In this document: piece after piece, positions 24,034-38,449 of the stretch
Layout: every line of letters begins with the position of its first letter
Position numbering within the stretch: the stretch's first letter is position 1
Source: Calothrix membranacea FACHB-236
GTDB taxonomy: Bacteria > Cyanobacteriota > Cyanobacteriia > Cyanobacteriales > Nostocaceae
Direction of reading: 5' to 3'
Assembly (NCBI RefSeq): GCF_014696315.1
Contig: NZ_JACJPX010000034.1
Coordinates: 1-64,000, forward strand
Length of the DNA stretch: 64,000 nt
The notes under the pieces: model-generated
Database searches by the model: none
What the model was told of the DNA's origin: nothing
The model's input: only the letters and a program-made list of their open reading frames with translations
Program-made: the position numbers and the translations under genes

Positions 24034-24780
24034 CTAATCCTTGGTTTGGCAATATTCAAAAGATAGGAGTTGCTGCTGAATCTTTTTGAACTCTGGCGAA
24101 GGATTCGTTACTGCAAAGATTTCTCGTAGTGCATCCGACCATAAGTTTTTCTTTACAAATAAATCTACTTTCTCTAATGTAATCGTCTCTGCACTAGCTC
24201 CTTGTTGGTTGAGCCGTGCTTCTATTTGTTTCAATTCATTTGTAATCTCATTACGCTTTTTCTCTTCCATAATTTGAAACGATGGTTGTTCTATCGGGAA
24301 GGGAATATGTAAACGCCAATGGTATAACTGACCAGGTTGTAGTGGTTCACCATCATAAATAATGCTGGTTTGACCTAGTGCAATTTCCCCGTTCCCCTTC
24401 CATAAGTCATTATTACTACCATCTTTAAATAACTGAATTTGCTTGACCGTTCCTTGTTTTATTTTCCATAGGAATAAGGGTTTTAAGCTCCAAATCTCAA
24501 CAGGTATATTGTTTTTTGTACTACTTGATGAACCTGGTTCTACTAGTTTCTGGGGAGCGAGTGCACATATGTCTCCTCTCCCTCCTGCTGGAACTTTTTG
24601 ACGGCGAAATATGGTTAATAAATCACTCAATAATAATGATATATATGTATTATTTGTATTGAGCAGTAAATTTTGAAGATATTGTTTTTTAACCGTGGCT
24701 TCGCTTGGTATTGCTATACATAAATTAGCTATTAATACATTTATTAACACAATAAATCTTAATAATCTGGCTTTATTCAC
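24034..24780 (-). CDS. DUF928 domain protein, exported
   Basis: 248 aa with a GTG start that overlaps the CHAT-CHASE2 stop by 8 nt. Residues 1-28 form a signal peptide (LLRFIVLINVLIANLCIA, then PSEA). The DUF928 hallmark PAGGRGDICAL (about 62-72) is followed by the WSLKPLFLWKI and GEPLQPGQLYHWRL segments that recur in the family. DUF928 is largely restricted to cyanobacteria and its function is not known; it is regularly encoded beside CHASE2, CHAT and DUF1822 proteins. It presumably acts outside the cytoplasm with the CHASE2 sensor domain of its upstream partner. Confidence 0.82.
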   Translation of the reverse strand: MNKARLLRFIVLINVLIANLCIAIPSEATVKKQYLQNLLLNTNNTYISLLLSDLLTIFRRQKVPAGGRGDICALAPQKLVEPGSSSSTKNNIPVEIWSLKPLFLWKIKQGTVKQIQLFKDGSNNDLWKGNGEIALGQTSIIYDGEPLQPGQLYHWRLHIPFPIEQPSFQIMEEKKRNEITNELKQIEARLNQQGASAETITLEKVDLFVKKNLWSDALREIFAVTNPSPEFKKIQQQLLSFEYCQTKD

Positions 24781-27295
24781 GAACGTTTCTCCTTGTTGTA
24801 ATTCGGATGTAATTCCACAAAGTTACTGATGGAAAAAAACAGGGAAGTAAAATCGCTGCGGAGGTGTAAATCTGTAATGAAATTATAAGATAAATAACTA
24901 AAACGCCCCAGAATCTCTTGAATATTTTTGGTTTATTAGGCGAATTTTCTAACATTCTAACAGTAAGTGCTTTTCCTAAAAAAGCACTTAATAAAATTAT
25001 GAAAAAATCTGGTATAGGTACTACTAATCTTTGTTTTAGTAAATGGTGAACCATGTATGCATGGGCTGCACTTCGAGAAAATATCCCTTCACCCCATCCG
25101 TTCCAGAAAGAAATTGCTGAAGGTATAGTTTCATTATCTTCACCCTTACCTTTAATACCAGCTTCTTCATATCCTGCTGGTACTATCATGACTACTTTAT
25201 TCTTCAGGTTATTGGGGATTTTGATTTCTGACTCGCAAGAACCAAGTAACTCACAAGCAGATACACTTTTGTAAATTTGCGTAGGAGGAATTGAAAAATC
25301 CAGAATCGGTTGAAAAAACTGTTGAAAATTAAATAATGGATGTAAGCGTAAGTTTTGCAAAAAATTATATCTTGTATTTTGTGAAATTATAGATTTGATA
25401 ATAGCATCACGAAAATCATTTTGGTTGGACAATTTAGGTTTTGGTAAATTAGGAGGCAATGACTTTTGATGCTGCAAAAAATAAGATAAAGCTAAAAGGT
25501 AACTAAAAGGACAACTATGAGAACAATTGGTATTACTTGGTAATTCAACATACCATTTAGTAATATTTATATCACCTGCTATACTCCAATTCAAGTTAGC
25601 AATATCAGCAGTTACAGTTTCTTTACTATTTTCAATTAAGCTGGTTTCATCTTGAGGATATAAAGCACCGAATACAAACCAGCTTTCTTGTGATACAGCA
25701 GCACGAATGGCTTGATTGAGTTTTTTGGATTTCTGTTTCTGCTGCTCACCTTGATCTAAAATATAATCGACACCAATTAGTTTAGAGTTTGCCTGAGAAA
25801 GTTTTTGAATTATATTTGCTAAATAACCATAATCTAATGGGTAAGGCTGTTTAATTTTATCTTGATTAATAGACTTATTATCAATTTTAACTAAAAATAA
25901 AGGAGACTCATCCTTTGGAATTTGATAGGTAAATTGGCGATAAAAAGCTTGCAGCCAAATCCGCTTATCTAACAAAAAATCTTGAACATTAGGTAATAAA
26001 CTAATAAGTAAAAGCAATAATAACCAACTCTCATTTTTAGGTTTTGGTAACCACTTTTTAATGGAATTCCAAAACCCAAAAGATTTCAAGCGAAATAGTT
26101 CTGCATCTGGATGACGATATAGTGAAGGGACAAGATAAGCGGAAGGGTAAGAAAAACGCGTTACTTGTTGTTTGAGGTATTGACAAGCATCTAACAAAGC
26201 CTGATGGACATCTTTGTATCCAACCAAACTCCGAAGAAACTGCACTAAAAATTTTCGTGCGACTTGATTGTGTATTGGTTCTCGCATCACTACTACCTGG
26301 CTCAAACCCAGGTTAATCAGCGATTCAGCAATATTTATGCCACTACAAGAATTGAAAATTGCAAACTGAAGTCCTCTAGTTTGTGCTTTTTTGAGTACTT
26401 CTTCAATATCTTGAATGGCTAGAGAAACATTGGGTGCAACTCCTAATTCTCCACCAGTTAAAATAGTTTCATTACTGTGTCCAGCAAAAAACAAAATATC
26501 CCAACCACGTTCGTCATTAATTGCATGAAATATTTGAGTTTTTAATTCTGTTGCATTTTCTGGATTTAGTACTTTAGTTGTTTTTGTATTCCAGCCAACA
26601 AACTCCACTTCTGCTATTGACTTAAGCGATTCGACTTCTTGCTGATCAGCTTCAAAATTTAAACTTGTATCATAACCAATGATGGCCAAAATTCTGGCTT
26701 TACGTTGCAGAGGACGGACTGGTTGATTACGAATGGTAGCTGGGGTACGATAAATTTGTATTTTTTCTGGGATACCTAAATCTGTACCAATTTCCCAAGT
26801 TTCCCAAGGTAATCGTGCTATTTCTATAGGGTTACAAGTTAAAAAAACCTCAACTGACTGTTGCTCATCGGAGAGTTTTCTAGCAGCATTAGCAATTTCA
26901 CGGCGAATATTTACCAAATCAGGACTCAGTAACCAGCGATGAAATTCATCTAACAATTGAGCTTCTGCATCTTTAAGTTGTTTGTTGCGGTCAACAGTAA
27001 TTTTACCAACGCCACTGATTACTTTTCTACCGCGCAGATTTTTATTGATTACTTTCCATCCACGCAAGTGGATATTGGTTAATTCTTGCTTTTGCAAATG
27101 ATTGATGGTCTTGCGTCCGCGTAGATGTTGATAGTAATCTAAATAAGCTTTCTGCCAATCTTCATAATTTTGAGTTAAGGATAAAGGATAATCAACTTGC
27201 TCAGTAATCTTCTGTCCTTGTCCTTGTAATTCAAATTGGCACACTGACTGGATGCGAGTCACTGTCAGATAAAAAAATGTTCGCGTTGTCGTCAT
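24773..27295 (-). CDS. CHAT-CHASE2 membrane protein
   Basis: 840 aa. The N-terminal half is a CHAT (caspase-fold) domain: LACNPIE-like opening, IARLPWETWEIG, then the catalytic pair in FFAGHSN (H273) and FNSCSG (C317). A transmembrane helix lies at about 423-440, a CHASE2 sensor domain at about 460-745 (LFLVKIDNKSI, IGVDYILDQG), and two C-terminal membrane helices at about 765-830. Topology suggests the sensor is extracytoplasmic and CHAT cytoplasmic. Three repeats of LRG-R/W-K-T/V-I lie at residues 58-95. It is the first gene of an operon with DUF928 and probably the caspase, and has the shared element at 27,446-27,478 upstream. A stimulus-gated protease is the working idea. Confidence 0.9.
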   Translation of the reverse strand: MTTTRTFFYLTVTRIQSVCQFELQGQGQKITEQVDYPLSLTQNYEDWQKAYLDYYQHLRGRKTINHLQKQELTNIHLRGWKVINKNLRGRKVISGVGKITVDRNKQLKDAEAQLLDEFHRWLLSPDLVNIRREIANAARKLSDEQQSVEVFLTCNPIEIARLPWETWEIGTDLGIPEKIQIYRTPATIRNQPVRPLQRKARILAIIGYDTSLNFEADQQEVESLKSIAEVEFVGWNTKTTKVLNPENATELKTQIFHAINDERGWDILFFAGHSNETILTGGELGVAPNVSLAIQDIEEVLKKAQTRGLQFAIFNSCSGINIAESLINLGLSQVVVMREPIHNQVARKFLVQFLRSLVGYKDVHQALLDACQYLKQQVTRFSYPSAYLVPSLYRHPDAELFRLKSFGFWNSIKKWLPKPKNESWLLLLLLISLLPNVQDFLLDKRIWLQAFYRQFTYQIPKDESPLFLVKIDNKSINQDKIKQPYPLDYGYLANIIQKLSQANSKLIGVDYILDQGEQQKQKSKKLNQAIRAAVSQESWFVFGALYPQDETSLIENSKETVTADIANLNWSIAGDINITKWYVELPSNTNCSHSCPFSYLLALSYFLQHQKSLPPNLPKPKLSNQNDFRDAIIKSIISQNTRYNFLQNLRLHPLFNFQQFFQPILDFSIPPTQIYKSVSACELLGSCESEIKIPNNLKNKVVMIVPAGYEEAGIKGKGEDNETIPSAISFWNGWGEGIFSRSAAHAYMVHHLLKQRLVVPIPDFFIILLSAFLGKALTVRMLENSPNKPKIFKRFWGVLVIYLIISLQIYTSAAILLPCFFPSVTLWNYIRITTRRNVRE

Positions 27296-27445: not shown

Positions 27446-27478
27446 CACATATCTCTCAGGAGAGGGAGGATATGTAGA
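27446..27478 (-). promoter_or_regulatory. shared bipartite element, copy E (CHAT-CHASE2)
   Basis: Read on the minus strand: TCTACATATC, 15 nt, GATATGTG, preceded by TTCCGTAAAT. The spacing is the same as in copies A-D and the element ends 150 nt before the CHAT-CHASE2 start codon. Three mismatches to the consensus make it the most divergent copy. The rest of the gene-free stretch 27,296-27,611 shows no gene. Confidence 0.7.
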
Positions 27479-27611
27479 AATTTACGGAAGAATAATGATT
27501 TTGGAAGCTCTATTTTAATTTTTCTTAATAATTAATGCTAAAAAAGCTGGTAATTATCTAGCAAATATCAATTTGGCTAACATTAGTGTGCGATCGCTGT
27601 CTCAAATTTTG

Positions 27612-28862
27612 CTATTCTCTAGTGAATTCCAATGGTGGCAATGTTTGCGTTTGTCCATTAGTGGATGTAATATTTACTAAAAACTGATCGTCGTAACTTC
27701 CCTCGATCAGAGTAAATATATATTCTTGTTGATGATTAGTTTGCAGTTCTTCTTCTACCAAAATCTCTGTTTTATCACTTACTCGCAATGTAAATCCAGA
27801 GCTAGAAGAGTTACTAGCCATATTTTTCAATATTAGCAGTAAATTCCATCCTGGGTTTTCATCAGGTAATGACCAAGTAACAGCATACAATCTTAGCGGA
27901 TTTTCTAGTTTTATCTCTTGATAGGCACGACCTGCTAATTTGGGAATATCTATTTTATATGTATGCTGAATGTTGGTGAGAATATTTTCTAACTCTTGCT
28001 CAGGGGTTTGCTTGATTCTCAGTAATGGTGATAATGGTGCTAATACCTGCCAAGAAAATTCTGGTATTACCTCATGTAATTGATGATGTAACCAAGACCT
28101 GACATTGACTGTTGGCTGAGTCAAAATCTGCAATAAATCTGGTGTTGTTAGTATTGCTACTCCTTGTTCCCAAGTCAAAACCAGCCAGAGAGGAGATTTA
28201 TGTAGTTGGGGTAATAAATTTAATAGTTCTGGCTGAATGGTGGTTACAAGATTTTGGCGCTCGCTCGGAATTTCTGGTAAAGTAATTGCTGTTGGTGATA
28301 AACATTGCAAATAAAGCAATAGTTCATTTACTTCGCTATTAAAACAAGTCAGCGGTAAGCAATAATTCCAATCTAATTCAGGTTGTAGTCCTGGTTGATA
28401 TTTAATGAGTTGGTCATAACGTAAAAATCCCCTGATACTAGCTAACTCTAGTTCTTCCGCGAGAGAAATTACTACATAAAAGTGGGCATTAAATTCTGGT
28501 AAATCTACTAATGCTCTGGGTATGATAACTTCTTCAGCGCTGAATGTAATAGTAGGAATAAGACAAACTTTAAATTTTCCGATAGATATATTAAATGCAG
28601 TATCAATTACATTAGAATATTGAGATTGCCAAGCTAGAAGTTCGGCTTTACTAATTGCAAGAGTAGGCTCCCGTTGCTCTAACCAAGCATGACAGGCAAA
28701 AAATGCTAAATATTGTAAATAAATCTGCCATTGTCTAGATTTATTGAGAGAATTTTGACTAAATTTTATAGCTTCAGTCAAATATTCTGATTCTAGGGTA
28801 ATTATTTCTGAAAATTGACTAAATTCAAAATAATCATCGGTTGTATCATTTTGTAAATACAT
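27612..28862 (-). CDS. DUF1822 family protein
   Basis: 416 aa. The N-terminal ITLESEYLTEAIKFSQ segment, a central strand-rich region (PRALVDLPEFNAHFYVVISLAEELELASIRGFLRYDQL) and the C-terminal LRLYAVTWSLPDENPGWNLLLILKN segment match the cyanobacterial DUF1822 family. There is no signal peptide or membrane helix. The gene starts 4 nt after the sigma-like gene and is co-transcribed with it. DUF1822 genes are habitually adjacent to such sigma-like genes and to CHASE2/DUF928/CHAT clusters. The function is unknown; a role in holding or gating the sigma-like factor is plausible but is inference. Confidence 0.8.
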   Translation of the reverse strand: MYLQNDTTDDYFEFSQFSEIITLESEYLTEAIKFSQNSLNKSRQWQIYLQYLAFFACHAWLEQREPTLAISKAELLAWQSQYSNVIDTAFNISIGKFKVCLIPTITFSAEEVIIPRALVDLPEFNAHFYVVISLAEELELASIRGFLRYDQLIKYQPGLQPELDWNYCLPLTCFNSEVNELLLYLQCLSPTAITLPEIPSERQNLVTTIQPELLNLLPQLHKSPLWLVLTWEQGVAILTTPDLLQILTQPTVNVRSWLHHQLHEVIPEFSWQVLAPLSPLLRIKQTPEQELENILTNIQHTYKIDIPKLAGRAYQEIKLENPLRLYAVTWSLPDENPGWNLLLILKNMASNSSSSGFTLRVSDKTEILVEEELQTNHQQEYIFTLIEGSYDDQFLVNITSTNGQTQTLPPLEFTRE

Positions 28863-28866
28863 AACA

Positions 28867-30261
28867 CTACGTCCTTTCTCTGATTTCCATTCGCGTGCAG
28901 AGATATCGGCAAATAGCTTGAGCTAACTGGTTTTTAATTACTTGCTGTGCCCCAGTACTTGCATCTATTCTTGCTTGCTCAATTACAGTTTGAATTTCCT
29001 CTTCCAAGATAGCTTGTATTTTTGACTCTAAGTCTAGCAGTTTATAGGGAGTAACATATTCTTGAGATATTTCCATAACACACTTAAGTAAACAGGATAA
29101 AGTGTTGCGTCCAATATCATTGCGTAAATTTTTTAGTTCTAATAGTCGGCTCACTTCTGGTTGATCTGTTAAATCTAATTGTTTGGCTATTTCTGTCATC
29201 GAAACCCCACAACAATGAAACAAATGAAGGGCTTTAATATATTTTTTTGCCTTTTTTAGCGACCTGATGCTGTTTTTACCTTGTAAATATTCAAATCGAG
29301 CTTGAATTACCAAATCTGCAGATTTAAATAGACATTGATCAAATTTCTGCTGATAATCTGCTAAAAACTCTGATGTTTTATCATATTTTTGTGGAACTAT
29401 AATTTTGTTGTCATCTGTCAAAGGCTGTAAACGAGGTAAGCCTTTCTTAGCACGAATACGTTCTTCTCTGAGTAACCTGGCAAGATTTTGCAGATGTTCT
29501 CGAATTTCTTCAGGAGATGTGATTTGTTGACATAAATCTCCTATTTGACGCAATTGTTCAAAAGTTGGCTCTGGATATCTACTTTTAGCGCCAGTTCTAC
29601 GAATTTGTAAAAGATGGGTGCGATAAACTTGGTGATAGCTATCGAGTAATTGGAGTGCTTGGTCAATTTCGATTTGTGTGTGCTGGTAATCTGACAAGAT
29701 CCGAGCTAAGTTTCCTGCTGTGGTGTAGTTGAGAATCATCCAGTCAGTAACTTGTTCTATACCGTGTTCTAGTAAAAACTGTTTGACTGTGCGATCGCTT
29801 TTGAGTATCCTGTTTGTCCAAGTTGATAAATTACTTTTTTCTGGGTCAAAAGTCTCTAAAATCTTTGTGGTTAAAGATTGGGTCTGGGAGAAGGGAATTT
29901 GATGGCTATCGAGCACCAGTGGTAAAATTTCTTCAATAGTAAAGTCATGTGTTTTACCAAACTTCTGGGTTAGTGCTTCGCCAATGGTTTTAATTTCATT
30001 GGAGATAAAACAACGCAGACAACCAAGAGCTAATTGCTGAAGATTAACATCATGGCTATATAACTGCATGAGTTGGCGTTGAATATCTCGCTCAGGTATA
30101 TTTTCTTGCTCAACAAATCCTGGAAACTGCTGCAAGAAAAACTCTTTGCTCTCGGTGAGTTCATCACAACACCTTTTACCAACACTATTGATGCTGATTA
30201 AGAGCCAATATTTCGATGCTCTATCCATCCCGACTTGATTTAGATACTTTTTGGCTACCAT
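28867..30261 (-). CDS. sigma-70-family-like transcription factor
   Basis: 464 aa. A helical N-terminal part is followed by a region-2/3-like section (FDPEKSNLSTWTNRILKSDRTVKQFLLEHGIEQVTDWMIL, 138-177) and a region-4-like helix-turn-helix (HCCGVSMTEIAKQLDLTDQPEVSRLLELKNL, about 349-379). This is the layout of the divergent cyanobacterial sigma-70 proteins encoded next to DUF1822. The protein lacks the canonical region 2.4 of housekeeping sigma factors, so the call is by architecture and neighbourhood. A copy of the shared element lies 139 nt before its ATG, consistent with autoregulation. Alternative: another DNA-binding regulator of the same fold. Confidence 0.68.
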   Translation of the reverse strand: MVAKKYLNQVGMDRASKYWLLISINSVGKRCCDELTESKEFFLQQFPGFVEQENIPERDIQRQLMQLYSHDVNLQQLALGCLRCFISNEIKTIGEALTQKFGKTHDFTIEEILPLVLDSHQIPFSQTQSLTTKILETFDPEKSNLSTWTNRILKSDRTVKQFLLEHGIEQVTDWMILNYTTAGNLARILSDYQHTQIEIDQALQLLDSYHQVYRTHLLQIRRTGAKSRYPEPTFEQLRQIGDLCQQITSPEEIREHLQNLARLLREERIRAKKGLPRLQPLTDDNKIIVPQKYDKTSEFLADYQQKFDQCLFKSADLVIQARFEYLQGKNSIRSLKKAKKYIKALHLFHCCGVSMTEIAKQLDLTDQPEVSRLLELKNLRNDIGRNTLSCLLKCVMEISQEYVTPYKLLDLESKIQAILEEEIQTVIEQARIDASTGAQQVIKNQLAQAICRYLCTRMEIRERT

Positions 30262-30400
30262 AAATGATAGATTTTTAGTGTCTTCCCTAGTGATAGTGAG
30301 ATAGGTTTGATAAATCGCACCTAGCTCTCCTAAACAACAGTATTTTGCAAAATTTATGAATATACATTACCTTTTAATAGACTCCAGCACTCTCTACTTA

Positions 30401-30433
30401 GCTATATCTTTGGAAAATTTGAAGTTATGTATT
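30401..30433 (-). promoter_or_regulatory. shared bipartite element, copy D (sigma-like gene)
   Basis: On the minus strand: AATACATAAC, 15 nt, GATATAGC. It ends 139 nt before the start codon of the sigma-like gene, so the predicted regulator would control itself. The remainder of 30,262-30,803 is AT-rich and shows no gene. Confidence 0.72.
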
Positions 30434-30803
30434 TTTTTAGTGAACAATTTTTGAGTCGATTTACCTAGATAGAGAGAACAGTCTGAGGGGTAAAAGCTAC
30501 CGATTCAGATATTTGTGACTGGTTTATCTTAAGTAGTATTAATTAATTTTTACTTTTTTAATCAGTGATAACTCTGAAAATATTAGCTACAAATTTAGAT
30601 ATTTAATATATTTAACTGTAAATTTATCAAACTTAAATCAATGCCAATATGTATGGTTCATATCTGATTTTTGAAATAAACATTGGGTGCATTATTGCTG
30701 AAGGTACAACACTGTCCGAAACCTGCGGTGCTGTAATTCCGACGATAATACACCATACATCTACTTAGATTCAAAAAAAATCTAATTGGATTGCTATAGA
30801 TTA

Positions 30804-31307
30804 CTATCTTTGAAGCATCTCGATTAGTCTCTGTATTCTTTTATAAGCATCAGAATTAGTCTCTCCCTGCTCTTGAAGTAAATTCTCTGCCTTTTGCAAG
30901 TTTAGCAATGCATCTTGCTTATGACCTTGTTTTATTTGAATCAAACCCCGGAATGCATAAGCTAGCGCAAAATTAGGCTGTAATTTAATTACTTCGCTAA
31001 AAGCCGTATCTGCAACGAAATAGTTTTCTTTTTGATATGCCTCTATTCCTTGTTGCATTAGTTGTTTAATATCTGTTGAGTTAGTTATAGGTCTTGAATT
31101 CGAGCTAGAGTTAGAGTCATTAGAGTCAGGAAAGAATCTTTTACATCTGGGTTCATCTCTCAAGTTATTTTTTAGACATACCTCCCGTTCTATAGCATAG
31201 AGATTTATGGGAGTGGGATCGATGAATTGTGCGTTTACTTTCCTACCAAAACTTACTAGCGTTGCCAAAGTTCCTAAGATAATACCAGCAGACTTAAGTT
31301 TATTCAT
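30804..31307 (-). CDS. exported TPR protein
   Basis: 167 aa. A signal peptide spans residues 1-27 (KSAGIILGTLATLVSFG, cleavage near VNAQ). A serine/asparagine-rich linker (SNDSNSSSNS) follows, then about two TPR units (MQQGIEAYQKENYFVADTAFSEVIKLQP, FALAYAFRGLIQIKQGHKQDALLNLQKAENLL). A copy of the shared element lies 61 nt upstream, in the intergenic region it shares divergently with the TPR-CHAT gene. It probably serves as an extracytoplasmic adaptor in the same regulon. The protein is small and specific function cannot be read. Confidence 0.78.
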   Translation of the reverse strand: MNKLKSAGIILGTLATLVSFGRKVNAQFIDPTPINLYAIEREVCLKNNLRDEPRCKRFFPDSNDSNSSSNSRPITNSTDIKQLMQQGIEAYQKENYFVADTAFSEVIKLQPNFALAYAFRGLIQIKQGHKQDALLNLQKAENLLQEQGETNSDAYKRIQRLIEMLQR

Positions 31308-31368
31308 GATTTGTTCGCTATTTTATAGCAGGATATTGTGGTAACCATATCGGTTGTTCCTTTAACCG

Positions 31369-31401
31369 CATATATCTTTTGGTAAATAAAGGTTATGTAA
31401 A
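31369..31401 (-). promoter_or_regulatory. shared bipartite element, copy C (TPR gene)
   Basis: On the minus strand: TTTACATAAC, 15 nt, GATATATG: an exact match to both halves of the consensus. It ends 61 nt before the ATG of the exported TPR gene. The remaining part of 31,308-31,615 has no gene; copy A stands on the other strand. Confidence 0.78.
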
Positions 31402-31550
31402 AAAATCACAAGAAAATCAAGTTAGTTGCTTGGTATTAATAGTTCATTTAAATATTTGATAGATAATTTACTATGTTTTTAGAAAAATCATCAAAAAACA
31501 AATAGTAAAAAAGCCTAAAATCCGTAGTTTCCGCAGATATTTACATAACT

Positions 31551-31583
31551 TTTACATAACCTCTCACCAATCAAAGATATATG
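31551..31583 (+). promoter_or_regulatory. shared bipartite element, copy A (TPR-CHAT gene)
   Basis: TTTACATAAC (31,551-31,560), 15 nt, GATATATG (31,576-31,583), then TAAG. A second TTTACATAAC half lies at 31,540-31,549, 11 nt upstream, and TTTCCGCAGAT precedes both. The element ends 32 nt before the ATG, which fits a promoter with a short leader. Confidence 0.8.
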
Positions 31584-31615
31584 TAAGTAATTCTAAGCAT
31601 ATTTACACTTCACCT

Positions 31616-34600
31616 ATGCGTCGTAGTCTTTATCGCCCAATAGCTCAACCTCTGCAACGCCTCACCCTTACCTCTTTGGCGCTTTACCTGATATTTCCCT
31701 TGGGAGCTTTGGAACTAGTACCATTGAGAACATCACAAGTATTAGCCCAAAGCGCAAATGCTCGTAAAACCGAAGCAGATAGACTGCTCAAACAAGGTAA
31801 TGAACTGTTCGATAGCGATCAAAATCAAGCTGCGTTAAAGCTTTTTCAGCAGACTTTAGGAATTTACCGTCAAATTAAAGATCGCCAGGGAGAAAGTACC
31901 GCGCTCAGAAAAATTGGCACTGTTTACGATTATTTGGGTGAGTCCAAGCAGGCGATTACTTACTATAAACAAGCTTTAGACATTGCTGAAGCTATTAATG
32001 ATACTGATTCAACATCAAGAGTGTTGAGTAATTGGGGACTTGCTTACTTACATTTGGGAAATACTCAGCGCACAAATGAATATTGTCAAAAAGCTTTAGC
32101 GGTAGCTCAAGAAAGTCAAAACTATGAAACCGAAGCATTGGCATTAAAATGTATATCTGCTTTTTACTTAACGACTCAAAGCCTTGACAAAGGAATTGAT
32201 TTTATAGGACAAGCTTTGGAAGCTATACGCAAAGCTAACGGTACTCCTAATGACAAACTGCGCCAACGCCAACTCGAAATTAGTCTTTTAAATAGTCGTA
32301 GCGACCTTTATCATGCACTTGGTACATACAAACTTGTAAACAAGGATAAAACTGGTTATCAATTATTGAATCAGTCACTACAAGATCGGCAACAAGCTTT
32401 AACAATTGCTAAACAAATAGGCGATACCCGCAGACAGGGAAAAGCACTCTTGGGAATGGGGGACACATACTCTATCCAAAACCAGTACTCCAAAGCTGTA
32501 GAAACATTCAAGCAAGCTTTACAGCTTTTCCAAGGTGATAAAAATTCTCGGTCTCAATTACGAGAAACTTATACCAAGTTGGGTGATGCTTACAAGGAAT
32601 GGGATAAGAAAGAGCAAGGATTGATATCTTATCAAGAAGCTCTGAAAATTATCAAGACAGAAGTGCCTAATTCTCCTGGAGACAAGCTATTTCAGGATAC
32701 AGATCAAGGATGGCTTTTAGTAAACATTGGCAATATTTATTTTGATACAACTGAGTATGAGAAAGCAGTCAATTCTTACGAAGATGCATTAAAAATATTG
32801 CTTTCATCCCTCGCTCAAGTAAAAAAGACTACTAATCCCATTACAAAGACTAAAGAGACAGTAATCAACAATGGAATTCAATTGAGTTATTTGCGGATGT
32901 GTCTCGCATACAAATTTCTAGGTCGATATGAAGAAGGAAACAAAGCTTGTCAGGCTGCTGGGAATGCGAAAGAAGGTTCAAACAATTCTAATTTGCTAAA
33001 AAATTTATCTTCAGACAAGCTTAAATCAACTCACTCTACTAAATCTCCCGAAAAGATAGCCAAGGCAGAAAAAGATTTAAAGGAAGCTGAAGAAAGTTTA
33101 GAACAAGCACGAGCATTTCAAAATACAAGTTTGGAAGCATATGCCCTTGCTAAGATTGGTAATGCTTACACTGATTTAGGAAACTATCAGGAAGCTGAGA
33201 CATATTTTAAACAGGCTATAGAACTTAGCAAGAGTGTTGAAAGTTATCAATATAAACCAGTTATATTTTTCCTGGCTGGAGAGTTTTATAGGAAGCAGAA
33301 AAAATATGATGAAGCAATTCAATATTACAAACAAGGTGGAGATTATGCCAAAGAAACTGGGTATCAACTACAAGAGGCGAATATCTTTGCCCAGAGTGGC
33401 ATAACTAGTTATCTAGCAAATAAGCTACCGGAAGCTACTAATGCTTTATATAGAGCAGTGAATGTTTTTGATGCGATGCGCGATAAATTAGTAATAGACG
33501 GTAATCGGATTGCCATTTTTGAAACCCAGGCTAGATACTATAGTCTGTTGCAAAAAGTTTTAATAGATCAGAAGAAATTTTCAGAAGCATTAGAAGTAGC
33601 TGAACGCAGTAGAGCTAGGGCATTTATTAACTTACTAGCATCACGGTTATCAGCAAAAAGTAATGATAAATTGACGACTAACTTATCTCAAATTTCATCT
33701 CCAAAAATTCAACAGCTTCAGGAAATCGCTAAACAACAAAATGCCACAATTGTAGAATATGCAGTACCAAATCCTCCTAACTATGATGATGGTACTCATG
33801 ATGAGGATCAGCTAGTATGGGATGGTGCCGAAATTTATATTTGGGTAGTTAAACCAACTGGAGAAGTAGCATTTAAACTCCAAAAACTCAATACACCTTT
33901 AAAAGATTTAGTTGCAGCAAGTCGTAGAGCTATTGGAGTGTATGATAATCGTGGCATTGTTGAACCAGTAAATCCAGTTAACGACAAGATACAGCTTGAA
34001 GATGTAGAAAAGCTATATCAAAAGCTATATCAATTGTTAATTCAACCAATCGCTCAATATTTACCCAAAAACCCCAATGAGCGAGTTATCTTCATTCCAC
34101 AAAATGAATTATTTCTAGTTGCTTTCCCTGCACTTAAAGACGAGCAAAATAAATATCTGATTGAAAAACACACTGTTCTCACCGCACCTGCAATTCAGGT
34201 ATTGGAACTTACACATCAACAACGACAAAAAGTTGCAGGAAATGGGGCTTTAGTTGTAGGTAACCCCAATATGCCAAGCATTACTCTCAAGAAAGGAGAA
34301 GCGCCTGAAAAGTTGAACCCCTTAAAAAATGCAGAGAAGGAAGCTCGTGAGATTGCTCAGATTCTCAACACTAAATCTCTAGTTGGTAACCAAGCTACTA
34401 AATCCACTGTCAAGCAACAGATGGTGAATGCAAGAATTATTCACCTAGCAACTCACGGACTACTTAATGATTTTGGCTTTGGTGTACCAGGAGCGATTGC
34501 TCTGGCACCTGATAATCTTCCGAAAGGAGAAAAAAAAGAGAATAATGGTTTGTTGACTGCTAGTGAAATTTTTGACATGAAATTAAAAGCCGAACTAGTA

Positions 34601-34879
34601 GTATTAAGTGCTTGTCAAACAGGACAGGGCGATATTAAAGGTGATGGAGTTATTGGACTTTCTCGCTCTTTAATTGCAGCGGGTGTTCCCAGTGTAGTTG
34701 TGTCTTTGTGGAGTGTACCAGATGACTCGACAAAGTTATTAATGACAGAGTTTTATCGGCAAATGCAGCAGACATCTGATAAAGCTCAAGCGCTGCGTCA
34801 GGCGATGTTAATAACTATGAAACAATACTCCGATCCGAGAGCTTGGGCAGGGTTTACTTTGATTGGAGAATCAAGGTAA
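31616..34879 (+). CDS. exported TPR-CHAT peptidase
   Basis: 1087 aa. A signal peptide covers about residues 1-45 (LTLTSLALYLIFPLGALEL, cleavage near VLAQS). Residues 50-640 are TPR repeats, many of the TPR_12 kind (AITYYKQALDIAEAINDTDS, AVETFKQALQLFQGDKN, AETYFKQAIELSKSV). The C-terminal CHAT domain has its histidine in LATHGL (H947) and its cysteine in VVLSACQTGQG (C1000), and ends WAGFTLIGES as usual. Both catalytic residues are intact. It stands alone on the plus strand behind copy A of the shared element. Family: TPR-CHAT caspase-like protease; unlike the CRISPR-linked type it has a signal peptide and no CRISPR nearby. Confidence 0.92.
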   Translation: MRRSLYRPIAQPLQRLTLTSLALYLIFPLGALELVPLRTSQVLAQSANARKTEADRLLKQGNELFDSDQNQAALKLFQQTLGIYRQIKDRQGESTALRKIGTVYDYLGESKQAITYYKQALDIAEAINDTDSTSRVLSNWGLAYLHLGNTQRTNEYCQKALAVAQESQNYETEALALKCISAFYLTTQSLDKGIDFIGQALEAIRKANGTPNDKLRQRQLEISLLNSRSDLYHALGTYKLVNKDKTGYQLLNQSLQDRQQALTIAKQIGDTRRQGKALLGMGDTYSIQNQYSKAVETFKQALQLFQGDKNSRSQLRETYTKLGDAYKEWDKKEQGLISYQEALKIIKTEVPNSPGDKLFQDTDQGWLLVNIGNIYFDTTEYEKAVNSYEDALKILLSSLAQVKKTTNPITKTKETVINNGIQLSYLRMCLAYKFLGRYEEGNKACQAAGNAKEGSNNSNLLKNLSSDKLKSTHSTKSPEKIAKAEKDLKEAEESLEQARAFQNTSLEAYALAKIGNAYTDLGNYQEAETYFKQAIELSKSVESYQYKPVIFFLAGEFYRKQKKYDEAIQYYKQGGDYAKETGYQLQEANIFAQSGITSYLANKLPEATNALYRAVNVFDAMRDKLVIDGNRIAIFETQARYYSLLQKVLIDQKKFSEALEVAERSRARAFINLLASRLSAKSNDKLTTNLSQISSPKIQQLQEIAKQQNATIVEYAVPNPPNYDDGTHDEDQLVWDGAEIYIWVVKPTGEVAFKLQKLNTPLKDLVAASRRAIGVYDNRGIVEPVNPVNDKIQLEDVEKLYQKLYQLLIQPIAQYLPKNPNERVIFIPQNELFLVAFPALKDEQNKYLIEKHTVLTAPAIQVLELTHQQRQKVAGNGALVVGNPNMPSITLKKGEAPEKLNPLKNAEKEAREIAQILNTKSLVGNQATKSTVKQQMVNARIIHLATHGLLNDFGFGVPGAIALAPDNLPKGEKKENNGLLTASEIFDMKLKAELVVLSACQTGQGDIKGDGVIGLSRSLIAAGVPSVVVSLWSVPDDSTKLLMTEFYRQMQQTSDKAQALRQAMLITMKQYSDPRAWAGFTLIGESR

Positions 34880-35055
34880 ATTTTCAACTAAACAATTACA
34901 GCAGATTATAGTTGGTGAAGTACAGATAATTATAAGTTCACGGCAGTGTAGTACTCAGAAGCGCGTACCTCATTTATCTGAAATACGCTGTATTTATTCT
35001 CGATATTCTCCAACATCAATAAAAGCTTTTCTTCTACTTTTTTTAGGTTTTTTGT

Positions 35056-35700
35056 ATGAAATTACATCAACTCAGAAAATTTTTCTGTTATTCATTCTCC
35101 ATCAGCATTGCTGTGTTTATAACTCAAGGAGCTCATGCACAAAGAACTGCGGTACCACTTAAGGAACCACCACCAGCTGCTGTTTACAATTGTGCTGGAT
35201 ATGATTCTGTATTTAGTGTTGCACCTAGCATTTTGGGAGAAATACAGCTTGATGGTAACGGAAATTATTCTTCTCCATCTTATGGGGAAGGACAATATAT
35301 TTTTGACCCGGAAACTAGCAGGGTGAGATTAATCAGTGGTACACTCGCTGGTTGGGTTGGTGCTTGGGAGATTCGTGGCGGAGATAAGCGAATTCGGTTT
35401 CCGCAAACACCAAATACCCGCCTCAAGCCAGATACCTCTGTGAAAGATACTGTCTGTTATCCCAAAAAAGGCACGGTTCGTAAAGAGTATACGCGGAGCG
35501 AGATACAAAAGATTGCGGATAAGATAAGAAATATGGCTAATACGGATGCAGGAAGGAGTTTGCCGCAGAAGTTCGATATCATGTCTGCCATATGCAACGG
35601 TGAAGCGCCTAAAATTAATGGTCGTGTTTTGAATGCTAATGAAACGGCTATGTTGCGGGAAGAGTTAGGTTGTCAAAATATTCCTGCGCCAGACAGATAG
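35056..35700 (+). CDS. exported beta-domain protein, paralogue 1
   Basis: 214 aa. The signal peptide is residues 1-29 (FFCYSFSISIAVFITQGAHA). Residues 30-135 form a predicted beta-rich domain: AVYNCAGYD, ILGEIQLDGNGNYSS, YGEGQYIFDPETSRVRLISG, WVGAWEIRGGDKRIRFP, then DTVCYPKKG; two cysteines flank it and may form a disulfide. The family is not one I recognise by name. The same domain opens the protein at 38,557-39,456 and, more distantly, closes that at 36,771-37,652. The leader and first codons match those of 38,557 closely, so duplication included the 5' region. Function unknown, probably extracytoplasmic. Confidence 0.7.
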   Translation: MKLHQLRKFFCYSFSISIAVFITQGAHAQRTAVPLKEPPPAAVYNCAGYDSVFSVAPSILGEIQLDGNGNYSSPSYGEGQYIFDPETSRVRLISGTLAGWVGAWEIRGGDKRIRFPQTPNTRLKPDTSVKDTVCYPKKGTVRKEYTRSEIQKIADKIRNMANTDAGRSLPQKFDIMSAICNGEAPKINGRVLNANETAMLREELGCQNIPAPDR

Positions 35701-35919
35701 AACTAGTATCGCTTACCTTGGAAGTCAAAAGTTAAAATTCACAAGACTTACATAATATGTTTATTTAGACAGTGGGGTACTAATAAGCATATAGGTACAC
35801 AGCATGGCAATTTTTTAGGCTGCGATCGCAGATAGATTTTGCATAATTACATTGAGTTTATAGGCGATCGCTTTTTATCCTTTTCTGCAATTAACGATAA
35901 ATAAGAAAGAGTTAAAAGT

Positions 35920-36700
35920 ATGAACCGTTTAATCTGGAAAACTCTCAGAAGTTGTATAACCTTAACCGCACTCACTGCTACCTCTATTCCTGTTAATGCA
36001 CAAACCAGTTCTGAAATCAATATTTTGACTGTTTGCAGCAAAGAATTGCTAACAACTTCTTCGACAGCAGATGAAATTATAAAAGCCAATGAAGAAATGG
36101 CGATCAGTGGTGCTCTTATGGCGGCAAGAGTACAAGCACAAGTATCAAGATTAGAAAATTCTGCTGGAAAGAATACATCATCAGAATCAGCAGTTGAAAA
36201 AGCTCGTGATGCATTACAAAAATTTAATCTGTATAACATCAAAAAGGGGTTTCAAGAATTAGAAAATAAACACCATAGCACAGCAATGTGTTTTTTTAAT
36301 AAAATAATAGTATTAAATGCTCCTAGTAAATATGCTGGTGCCTACCTTGGTAGAGGACTCACCTATGTTGAACAAGGAGATAAACAAAGTGGTCTTGCAG
36401 ATTTAAGAGAAGCAGCGGAACTGTTTAAAAGCCAAAATGAGCAAGAATTGTTTCAAAAAGTCACAAGAATAATTAAAAAATTAACAAATAACACTTCTAC
36501 GACAGTTTGCATAAGCAGCGTACACCTATGTTCAAATTACCGAAGCAATCAATAACAGGAACTTACGGTGAATGCTTTTACATGAGTTACCTTACACCTG
36601 TGCCTGGAGGGGCAGGAAAATGGCAGGTTTAGTAGGAAAATATGAGATACCTAAAAAAGGTAGATCGGTAATTCTTTTTTATCCCCAATCTAAGCTTATC
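35920..36700 (+). pseudogene. frameshifted exported TPR/beta-domain paralogue
   Basis: The open part (35,920-36,555, 211 aa) has a signal peptide ending near VNAQ, a helical stretch and one TPR-like unit (YLGRGLTYVEQGDKQSGLADLREAAELF), almost collinear with the protein at 36,771. After a frameshift near 36,510-36,545 the sequence resumes in another frame with SITGTYGEC (36,547-36,573) and LTPVPGG, matching the beta domain of the downstream paralogue. It then lacks the following roughly 45 residues and ends with a KYEIPKKGRSVILFY remnant near 36,640-36,690. The gene has therefore lost its beta domain by frameshift plus internal deletion; the truncated protein may still be made. Confidence 0.72.
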
Positions 36701-36770
36701 CTAGTTTTGTTTTATTCCTCTTGTGTTACCTGAAAATATTAAATACAACAAGCAAAAATCAGTTAAAATT

Positions 36771-37652
36771 ATGAACCCTTCAATAAAGCAAACGTTCGGA
36801 AGCTGTATAGCTTTAACTGCTTTAACTTTTGCGTCTATTCCGGCTTACGGACAAAATAACTTTAAAGATATCTTTCATAATCTTGCAGATATTCAACGTG
36901 AAGCGATGAGATGTTTACAACAAACGTCCGAATCTTCAACAGCAGACGAACTTATTCAAGACACAGGAGAAATCGCAGAAGCTAGTGCTGCTGTTGAAGT
37001 TACGGCAGGGGATGGTGTTGCAAAGTTACTTAAATTTTTTATAAAAAAGGGTTTTCAAAAATTAGAAAACAAAAATTATGCTGGAGCGCTATGTTATTTT
37101 AACCAAGTAATAGAAAAAGATGTGTCTAGTAAATATGTATCTACTGCCTACCTTGGACGAGGTCTCACCTACATTGAACAAGGAGATAAACAAAAAGGTA
37201 TTGCAGATTTAAAAGAAGCATCTCGACTTTTTAAAAGTCAAGGTGATAAAAAAAATTTTCAAAAAGTTACGAGAATAATTCAACAATTCACAAATAATGG
37301 TTCTGTTACAGCCTATGCACAAAGTACTGAAGCATCAATAACAGGAACTTACGGAGAGTGCTTGCTTTTGGGACACCTTACTCCTACACCTAGTGGGTTA
37401 GGACAATTTACCCTTGATGGTAAAGGTAATTATTCTTCTACTATGTTTGGCAAGGGGCATTACGTGTTTAATCCAGAAGAGAACACAGTACATTTTATAG
37501 ACGGCAAAATGAAAGATTTACTTGGGATTTATTCAGTAGATAAAAAAGGCAGATCAGCAGTCCGGTTTTATATAGATAAAGAAGGTAATTTTTATAGAGA
37601 ATCTAATTCTAATGTAACTACCGGCATGACTTGCCCAAATCAGAACAATTAA
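36771..37652 (+). CDS. exported TPR + beta-domain protein
   Basis: 293 aa from the ATG at 36,771; a GTG at 36,723 would put charged residues before the signal peptide (TFGSCIALTALTFASIPAYGQ), so the ATG is preferred. A helical segment and a TPR-like unit (AYLGRGLTYIEQGDKQKGIADLKEASRLF) follow. The C-terminal 100 residues are the beta domain (TGTYGECLLLGHLTPTPSG, FTLDGKGNYSSTMFGKGHYVF, RSAVRFYIDKEG) ending at a cysteine. It is the intact form of the damaged gene upstream. The pattern LDG-GNYSS-x-G-Y-F links it to the 35,056 and 38,557 proteins. Confidence 0.72.
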   Translation: MNPSIKQTFGSCIALTALTFASIPAYGQNNFKDIFHNLADIQREAMRCLQQTSESSTADELIQDTGEIAEASAAVEVTAGDGVAKLLKFFIKKGFQKLENKNYAGALCYFNQVIEKDVSSKYVSTAYLGRGLTYIEQGDKQKGIADLKEASRLFKSQGDKKNFQKVTRIIQQFTNNGSVTAYAQSTEASITGTYGECLLLGHLTPTPSGLGQFTLDGKGNYSSTMFGKGHYVFNPEENTVHFIDGKMKDLLGIYSVDKKGRSAVRFYIDKEGNFYRESNSNVTTGMTCPNQNN

Positions 37653-37702
37653 CATAATTCTAAATATACAGCTTCAAAAACTTGACGCAATTTCCGCAAA
37701 TT

Positions 37703-37735
37703 TTTACATAACCTCCTGATTATGGGAGATATATG
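37703..37735 (+). promoter_or_regulatory. shared bipartite element, copy B
   Basis: TTTACATAAC (37,703-37,712), 15 nt, GATATATG (37,728-37,735), then TAAG, preceded by TTTCCGCAAAT: a perfect match to the consensus. It ends 36 nt before a short, truncated secreted-protein ORF, so the promoter has outlived its gene; it could also feed the TPR gene at 37,979. Confidence 0.78.
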
Positions 37736-37771: not shown

Positions 37772-37843
37772 ATGAACCGTTTCACAAAGCTTATCTGCAT
37801 AATTGTTTCTTTTGCATTACCTATCCCTCTTTTGTCAGAGTGA
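37772..37843 (+). pseudogene. truncated signal-peptide ORF
   Basis: 23 codons that read as a signal peptide only (MNRFTKLICIIVSFALP, then a stop). The start resembles that of the 35,920 gene (MNRLIWK...). It stands 36 nt after copy B of the shared element at the spacing of the TPR-CHAT gene. No downstream continuation in any frame was found up to 37,978. Best read as the leftover 5' end of a member of the secreted family. Confidence 0.5.
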
Positions 37844-37978
37844 GAGAATCCAAGGGAGCAACAAATATTACATGACGCTATTCTACAGCTATCGTGTAGC
37901 TTGCTTACCGCATAGTAAATAACTACCTATCAATGTAGAAGTTTCCAACCTTTGAGTTTCCAATCATCAATTCTAACT

Positions 37979-38449
37979 ATGAACAAAATCATCAAACGCT
38001 TCGCCAATTTATCTGTCAGCTTGGTATCTTTCGCATCTTTAGTAGGGTTAGGTGTTAATGTACAAGCACAGTGGGTCAATCCAGACATCATACCTGGCGC
38101 ACCAAATCTTCCAATCATACCTGGTGCACCAGATTCTGATCAAACAAACAATACGAATGTTCCCCGTTCAACTATTAATCCTCAACTTGCGACCACCTAT
38201 CTCGAACAGGGTTTTCAATATTATCAAAACGGGGAATACCAGAGTGCGATCGCAGCCTATAATTCATCGCTTGCGAACAATCCCAGTTATGCTGCTGCTT
38301 ATCTTGCTCGTGCTATGGCGTTACACAAATTAGGAGACAGATACAATGCCTATTTAGATGCGCGAAGGGCAGCTTATTGGTCTCGCCAACAAAACAATCA
38401 GAAAATCTATAATGCAGCGCAAAAATTCAAGCGTGCAATCTATCGATAA
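37979..38449 (+). CDS. exported TPR protein
   Basis: 156 aa from the ATG at 37,979. An upstream in-frame ATG at 37,952 would add MSFQSSILT before the signal peptide, which is less likely. The signal peptide is about residues 1-31 (LSVSLVSFASLVGLGVNVQAQ). A short proline-rich duplication, IIPGAP twice, follows, then two TPR units (TTYLEQGFQYYQNGEYQSAIAAYNSSL, PSYAAAYLARAMALHKLGDRYNAYLDARRA). Similar in layout to the protein at 30,804. It may be read from copy B of the shared element 240 nt upstream. Confidence 0.75.
   Translation: MNKIIKRFANLSVSLVSFASLVGLGVNVQAQWVNPDIIPGAPNLPIIPGAPDSDQTNNTNVPRSTINPQLATTYLEQGFQYYQNGEYQSAIAAYNSSLANNPSYAAAYLARAMALHKLGDRYNAYLDARRAAYWSRQQNNQKIYNAAQKFKRAIYR

Follow-up and report, generated by a model that had tools for sequence, protein, structure and literature searches.

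Upstream of several genes in a 64,000-nt stretch of the genome of Calothrix membranacea FACHB-236 (contig NZ_JACJPX010000034.1; the whole stretch is called the window below) stands a two-part, promoter-like element, and the question that this locus raises is which protein reads it and to what end. One of these genes encodes a sigma-like protein of 464 aa, and others encode proteins with a CHAT (caspase-like) domain or with tetratricopeptide repeats (TPR). The best reading that we can offer is that the element is the cognate, autoregulated promoter of a divergent sigma factor of the extracytoplasmic function (ECF) type with a protease regulon. Very probably it is read by RNA polymerase together with the sigma factor of 28867-30261, which would activate its own operon, the TPR-CHAT gene and the small TPR genes.

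Five copies of the element were located in the window. Three are exact: 31551..31583 on the plus strand, 5' of the TPR-CHAT gene; 37703..37735 on the plus strand, 5' of the 23-codon remnant of a signal-peptide ORF that starts at 37772 and, beyond it, of the TPR gene starting at 37980; and 31369..31401 on the minus strand, 5' of the gene for a small TPR protein. The remaining two, both on the minus strand, differ from the consensus of a first-pass annotation of this DNA, the copy at 30401..30433 (5' of the sigma gene) by 4 mismatches and the copy at 27446..27478 (5' of the CHAT-CHASE2 gene) by 3. That annotation had reported TTTACATAAC-N15-GATATATG at all five places; the architecture and spacing hold in 5/5 copies, the exact sequence in 3/5 only. 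What else it had said of the copies was confirmed: the 15-nt gap is constant in all five, the gap sequence differs (spacers share 4-9 of 15 positions between pairs, compared with 12-18 of 18 for the halves), every copy lies upstream of a gene and is oriented toward it, and some copies share an additional sequence before the left half, which is TTCCGCAAAT-like and occurs at 31551, 37703 and 27446 (3/5). The distance from the element to the start codon is 32 nt for TPR-CHAT, 61 nt for TPR, 139 nt for sigma and 150 nt for CHAT-CHASE2; at 37703 it is 36 nt to the remnant and 244 nt to the next TPR gene. The hexamers that end the halves (CATAAC or CATATC on the left; TATATG, TATAGC or TATGTG on the right) are 17 bp apart in all five copies. 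As 17 bp is the classical spacing of sigma-70 promoters, the geometry of CATAAC and TATATG resembles a promoter of this type.

A chance origin of the sites was rejected by shuffling of the window and by scanning of the whole genome. At up to 3 mismatches the window contains 4 matches, whereas 100 dinucleotide shuffles average 0.09 and never reach 4. In the own genome of 8.8 Mb, with up to 2 mismatches allowed, 5 matches were obtained for the pattern TNYACATAASCYC-N9-RRAGATATA, which are the five sites (reversed-pattern control: 1); this is contrary to the random positions that the first-pass annotation had named as the outcome that would speak against the element. An earlier, different pattern with like spacing had found four of the five sites and 4 weak matches elsewhere in this genome at the same tolerance (control: 2), and a matrix scan of window positions 14001 to 48000 returned exactly the five sites. 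A coding artefact was rejected because every site is intergenic, between the named genes, and a purely local repeat family was rejected by the unlinked copies found in three relatives.

Some features of the sequence next to the element were noticed in passing. At 31540-31560, TTTACATAAC is doubled in tandem with an 11-nt step, the extra copy occupying 31540-31549 and the second serving as left half in the 31551 element; Calothrix brevissima has a similar, altered, extra copy. A TTTCCGCAAATT-like sequence lies shortly 5' of the left half at 31551, 37703 and 27446, and also in loci of relatives (L039 at 5288 and 11665, L041 at 4286); it is absent 5' of the sigma gene of the window. It is possibly the site of a second regulator or an UP-like element. 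The 23-codon remnant 3' of the exact 37703 element occupies 37772-37843; in C. brevissima a near-identical copy of this element precedes an intact secreted-protein gene, which is 86% identical to the one at 35056, and it seems that in C. membranacea the 37703 promoter has survived its first gene or lost it.

The same bipartite element was recovered by a blind search upstream of the sigma homologues. In one-block expectation maximization (EM), run on 47 non-redundant regions that surround sigma starts, most regions had an upstream site resembling TGCATAAG...GAAtTAA (log-likelihood 580, compared with 125 for one shuffle run with fewer restarts). Two-block EM with free spacing was applied to 84 non-redundant upstream regions, which were left of 140 when regions sharing at least 12% of their 10-mers with a kept one were removed, and yielded AAcTGCATAAGc-N9-ccAGAaaTA, a single gap length carrying 82% of the weight. 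Its log-likelihood was 716, against 84 and 89 for two shuffles given equal effort and 73-94 for three lighter ones (the value of 696 for reverse-complemented regions comes from the same DNA read backwards and is no control). In-sample, 71/84 regions scored above the 99% point of the shuffles, at a median of 98.5 nt from the sigma start, and two-fold cross-validation gave 36/42 and 35/42 (again 71/84, held out) versus 6/42 and 4/42 (10/84) on the reverse strand, which holds at least some divergent CHAT promoters (e.g., in L039). Judged from sequence, a promoter-like site of two parts at the sigma gene itself, as expected of an ECF sigma factor, is thus present in 71 of the 84 held-out regions.

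The spacing proved to be critical in a scan of six genomes, in which a gap of 15 gave 39 matches (4 with the reversed pattern) and a gap of 16 gave 2 (control 1). Across 145 genomes of the family, 77 of which have a homologue of the sigma gene, the GATATA pattern at up to one mismatch matched 33 times in 12 genomes (control 2): 32 matches fell in 11 of the 77 genomes with the homologue and one among the 68 without it, and for this single match (in G094) no open reading frame (ORF) was found downstream. The genes 3' of the 33 matches encode CHAT (11), TPR (9), sigma (3), other small exported proteins (4), and others or none (6); for some of them the assignment rests on similarity to a window gene or an orthologue, and export was judged by reading the N-terminus. 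Because the pattern was written after the window sites and some loci of relatives had been seen, the 16 matches in loci read beforehand are not independent, and the 17 previously unseen ones were counted apart: CHAT 5, TPR 6 and sigma 1 (12 in the expected classes), others or none 5. Pfam, run on 10 of 16 listed downstream proteins, assigned six to CHAT, three to TPR and one to subtilase. The claim that the element defines a regulon is supported, with one correction: TPR-CHAT and TPR targets, including unlinked copies in relatives, agree with it, and the regulon looks local in the own genome and dispersed in G108 (C. brevissima), G078 and G033, the three relatives examined. The element marks only a small subset of the CHAT genes, because genomes hold many CHAT matches (58 in G000, 78 in G108 and 33 in G033).

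Three copies in relatives are recorded here as single observations. One-mismatch copies outside the usual target classes stand 5' of a Mur-ligase-like gene (L220, 6656) and 5' of the gene for a VWA/DUF1194 protein (L218, 5539). In G104, one of the 11 genomes, the element lies just 5' of a sigma ORF fragment of 188 aa (L219, 6641-7354), and the 13 kb fetched contained no DUF1822 or CHAT-CHASE2 match; perhaps the locus has decayed and the promoter was kept.

Between the homologues, the two halves of the element behave differently. The left half is nearly constant (TRCATAAS), whereas the right half goes with the sigma clade, being GATATA in the clade of the window and GAAATATAA or GARTTAAGA in others, and other variants exist as well. 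When 75 sigma proteins are placed on a tree, the class of the right half changes six times among 50 labelled rows (the tree was built by a quick method, without a shuffled-label comparison, and 12 rows of unclear class and 13 unlabelled rows were not counted). The GARTTAAGA pattern gave 23 matches in the 145 genomes (control 1), 18 directly 5' of a sigma homologue and 5 elsewhere; since it was derived from sigma-upstream sites, the 18 are partly built in and the informative matches are the few elsewhere, namely one 5' of CHAT-CHASE2 in C. brevissima, one likely (unverified) counterpart in G088, and three that are unexplained. In C. brevissima the right half differs at each of three sigma genes, and at least one more homologue is present. 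A matrix scan of the loci used three right-half classes and skipped loci of unclear class or shorter than 9 kb; 22 of its 72 sites had no assigned gene start. The pattern of right halves is the outcome that would be expected of co-diverging pairs of sigma factor and promoter; shared descent of the loci also contributes, and the two are not separated here.

These data bear directly on the rival that survives best, in which a separate DNA-binding protein, activator or repressor, has its operator here and the sigma-like protein is a mere neighbor. Bipartite sites with fixed spacing would suit a dimeric regulator as well, and the flanks at 31551 and 37703 are partly palindromic (TTACATA...TATGTAA), but the halves of other clades (TGCATAAG with GAAATATAA or GARTTAAGA) are neither inverted nor direct repeats, the right half changes with the sigma clade while the left half stays, and the 17-bp spacing of the hexamers and the gene-facing orientation suit a promoter. 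Furthermore, the sigma-like protein is the only constant DNA-binding protein found beside the element, although no systematic search for regulators was made. We regard a separate regulator as unlikely. Still less probable are ordinary SigA-type promoters that are alike through homologous or duplicated upstream regions: TATATG and TATAAG do resemble a -10 box at 17-bp spacing, and orthologous sites do occur (the C. brevissima copy of the 37703 site has an identical spacer), but the spacers in the window are just 4-9/15 identical, the conserved left half is not TTGACA-like, 8.8 Mb hold five matches and not hundreds, and a change of the spacing by one base abolishes the enrichment, and on these four grounds the explanation was rejected. 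Least credible is an action at the mRNA level, by a transcribed RNA element or a hairpin (CTCC...GGAG): short inverted repeats in some spacers suggest it (e.g., CCTCC-N7-GGGAG at 37703), but no clear inverted repeat stands at 31551 and several unlinked sites, nor, on reading, in the GAAATATAA and GARTTAAGA forms.

The reading of the element as a sigma-dependent promoter also requires that the 464-aa protein is a sigma factor. A profile of 75 homologues (from an alignment that excludes two loci interrupted by in-frame stops) was compared by hhalign with seven sigma proteins of the own genome, taken from its 13 sigma loci, and matched with a probability of 97.3 and an E-value of 6.7e-11, whereas the DUF1822 profile, used as an unrelated-family control, gave 0.1 and 0.7. 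In the alignment, FDPEKSN-LSTW is paired with FDHEKGYKFSTY of region 2 and the helix-turn-helix at the C-terminus with region 4, so that homology extends over both regions that characterize the sigma-70 family. TIGR02937 (sigma70-ECF), which more members match than any other sigma model, was found in 12/75 of them at E <=0.1 (best 3.3e-5); the three scores examined are far under its curated cut-off, and no member for which scores were seen reaches a curated cut-off. Pfam sigma models are matched by none of the 11 members listed in full (the window protein and ten others, the latter at E <=1), and do not appear for 38 members among the 25 families listed of 43 matched. The AlphaFold model (pLDDT 87, pTM 0.59) predicts helical segments between and after regions 2 and 4. 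All 50 VIA-align matches listed, which had been pre-selected by Foldseek, are RNA-polymerase or sigma entries, many aligned across both domains; the comparison barely covers the model beyond residue 396, and no weight is given to families that are missing from the fold lists. A sequence search of the PDB gave no sigma chain among its 5 matches (best DMAP6, E 0.0023). We conclude that the protein is a divergent member of the sigma-70 family, and we call it ECF-like.

The first-pass annotation had taken the element for a two-part site of a sigma factor or regulator, perhaps read by the sigma-like neighbor, and the fixed spacing across species, the blind recovery, the clade-linked right half, the unlinked TPR-CHAT and TPR copies and the sigma-70 membership all point the same way. 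Several results weigh against the sigma-promoter reading. The window protein matched no sigma model in Pfam or NCBIfam HMM searches, the top three Foldseek hits of its model are sigma chains at E-values of only 0.23-0.25, followed by an unrelated flippase at 0.25, and the VIA-align Z scores (6.1-7.9) are under 8, a level that is common for helical models. The site was not found in 13/84 sigma upstream regions. Six of the 33 matches lack an expected gene, being followed by a VWA protein, a Mur-ligase-like protein, a short ORF and then a subtilase, a nuclease-like lipoprotein at 503 nt, a contig end, and nothing; and 4 of 7 unlinked two-mismatch sites precede no relevant gene recognized by reading (not Pfam). 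The GATATA pattern has no match in 66 of the 77 sigma-bearing genomes, a scarcity that would follow from the use of different right halves in other clades, of which only one form was checked. As the sigma, DUF1822 and CHAT-CHASE2 genes travel together, their co-occurrence alone cannot name the reader of the predicted promoter. DUF1822 is at most a candidate inhibitor (anti-sigma).

If the sigma-promoter reading is correct, region 4 of the sigma factor would read the left half as the -35 box (TRCATAAS) and region 2 the right half as the -10 box (GATATA), and transcription would start ~7 nt after TATATG. The sigma factor would bind directly and transcribe its own operon (sigma-DUF1822, and then CHAT-CHASE2-DUF928 from the second copy of the element), as well as switch on the TPR-CHAT and small TPR genes, the products of which mostly look exported, which would result in a protease regulon with positive feedback. 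The steps upstream of the free sigma factor are proposed with less confidence and by analogy with CASP-sigma/Csx30/Csx29, as outlined in PMC10028731, and with RseA/DegS, which that paper also mentions: CHASE2 may sense a stimulus from beyond the cytoplasmic membrane, the CHAT domain attached to it in the cytoplasm may become proteolytically active, and the sigma factor may be freed when DUF1822 (or the sigma factor itself) is cut. DUF1822 is put forward as the sigma inhibitor because it is the most constant candidate. A broader scheme, which we advance tentatively and consider rather doubtful, is a widespread, CRISPR-free cyanobacterial cascade in which the membrane-bound, caspase-like protease CHAT-CHASE2 responds to a signal of envelope or foreign origin by destroying DUF1822, and the freed sigma factor, of a lineage that Pfam-based censuses miss, induces exported TPR-CHAT proteases and its own operon, parallel paralogues in one genome being insulated by their different -10 codes.

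The genes of the cluster lie on the minus strand in the order sigma (divergent ECF-like factor, 464 aa, 28867..30261), DUF1822 (27612..28862, beginning 4 nt past the sigma stop codon; the candidate sigma partner or anti-sigma), CHAT-CHASE2 (24773..27295) and DUF928 (24034..24780, the usual last gene). The CHAT domain of CHAT-CHASE2 has the motifs FFAGHS and FNSCSG, which we take to be the CHAT His and Cys motifs, followed by apparent membrane segments around the CHASE2 domain. In the TPR-CHAT protein (31616..34879, plus strand), which has an apparent signal peptide, the corresponding His and Cys motifs are HLATHG and LSACQTG. Two small TPR proteins are encoded at 30804..31307 (minus strand; its TPR_2 match is slightly under the Pfam cut-off) and 37952..38449 (plus strand; apparently exported, likely start ATG 37980). 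The four-gene order recurs in 48/60 loci fetched around homologues and in 51/80 named loci (80 were kept of 107 relatives, their titles read as cyanobacteria); the two sets overlap, and contig ends cut some loci. DUF1822 follows within 1 kb of sigma in 58/60 and 77/80 loci, and CHAT-CHASE2 further on in 52/60 and 59/80. TPR-CHAT genes are often near the cluster, in some loci between DUF1822 and CHAT-CHASE2.

Typical ECF sigma factors are compact two-domain proteins. The protein described here shares with the ECF group (group IV) the two recognition regions, the bipartite promoter with fixed spacing and a promoter at the sigma gene itself, and it differs in its length of 464 aa, in the lack of a Pfam sigma match in the 11 members listed, and in having DUF1822, which is not a known anti-sigma, as companion. 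Neighborhoods of an EACC2-caspase/CHASE2 protein, an ECF sigma factor and DUF1822 are described by Kaur et al. 2021 (eLife; PMC8195603), who proposed a transcriptional response mediated by the sigma factor. The window and most of the loci agree with that description in having a caspase-like protein with a variable C-terminus such as CHASE2 beside sigma and DUF1822. Section 9 of that paper contains no promoter element, target genes or clade specificity, and it calls DUF1822 a TPR protein, whereas Pfam here gives DUF1822 only and the C-terminus of the predicted model is beta-rich. A fold search with DUF1822 gave Ig-like and similar sandwiches over ~100 residues and no anti-sigma among the 50 matches listed. 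With CASP-sigma/Csx30/Csx29 of type III-E CRISPR (PMC10028731) the locus shares its TPR-CHAT protease and sigma factor, an inhibitor of sigma (here a candidate) and sigma motifs. Unlike in that system, no CRISPR effector was found among the nine cluster proteins scanned with Pfam (neither Cas7-11 nor Csx30; the rest of the window was not scanned), and the TPR-CHAT protein looks exported, membrane-bound CHAT-CHASE2 being the candidate activating protease; the type III-E sigma model matches 1/75 members (E 0.049). The neighborhood is thus already published, and in the open-licence part of PubMed Central we found no report of the element; PMC9679502 and PMC9284123, searched by term, contained nothing of relevance. 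A 2024 census of cyanobacterial sigma factors (PMC11119718) required Pfam sigma domains according to its methods and would probably have missed this lineage.

Cyanobacteria carry dozens of CHAT proteins. The element offers a readable promoter code for a defined subset of them, and it names the factor expected to read it, so that regulation of this subset becomes directly testable. Paralogues with different -10 forms, as in the three C. brevissima sigma genes, may be natural insulated pairs of sigma factor and promoter.

Two further sigma-like genes were seen in one genome (L214, 7057-8978; L215, 8241-10029); both score above the TIGR02937 cut-off and each is followed by a DUF1822 match (24% identity), and the pairing of sigma with DUF1822 seems to be wider than this sigma lineage.

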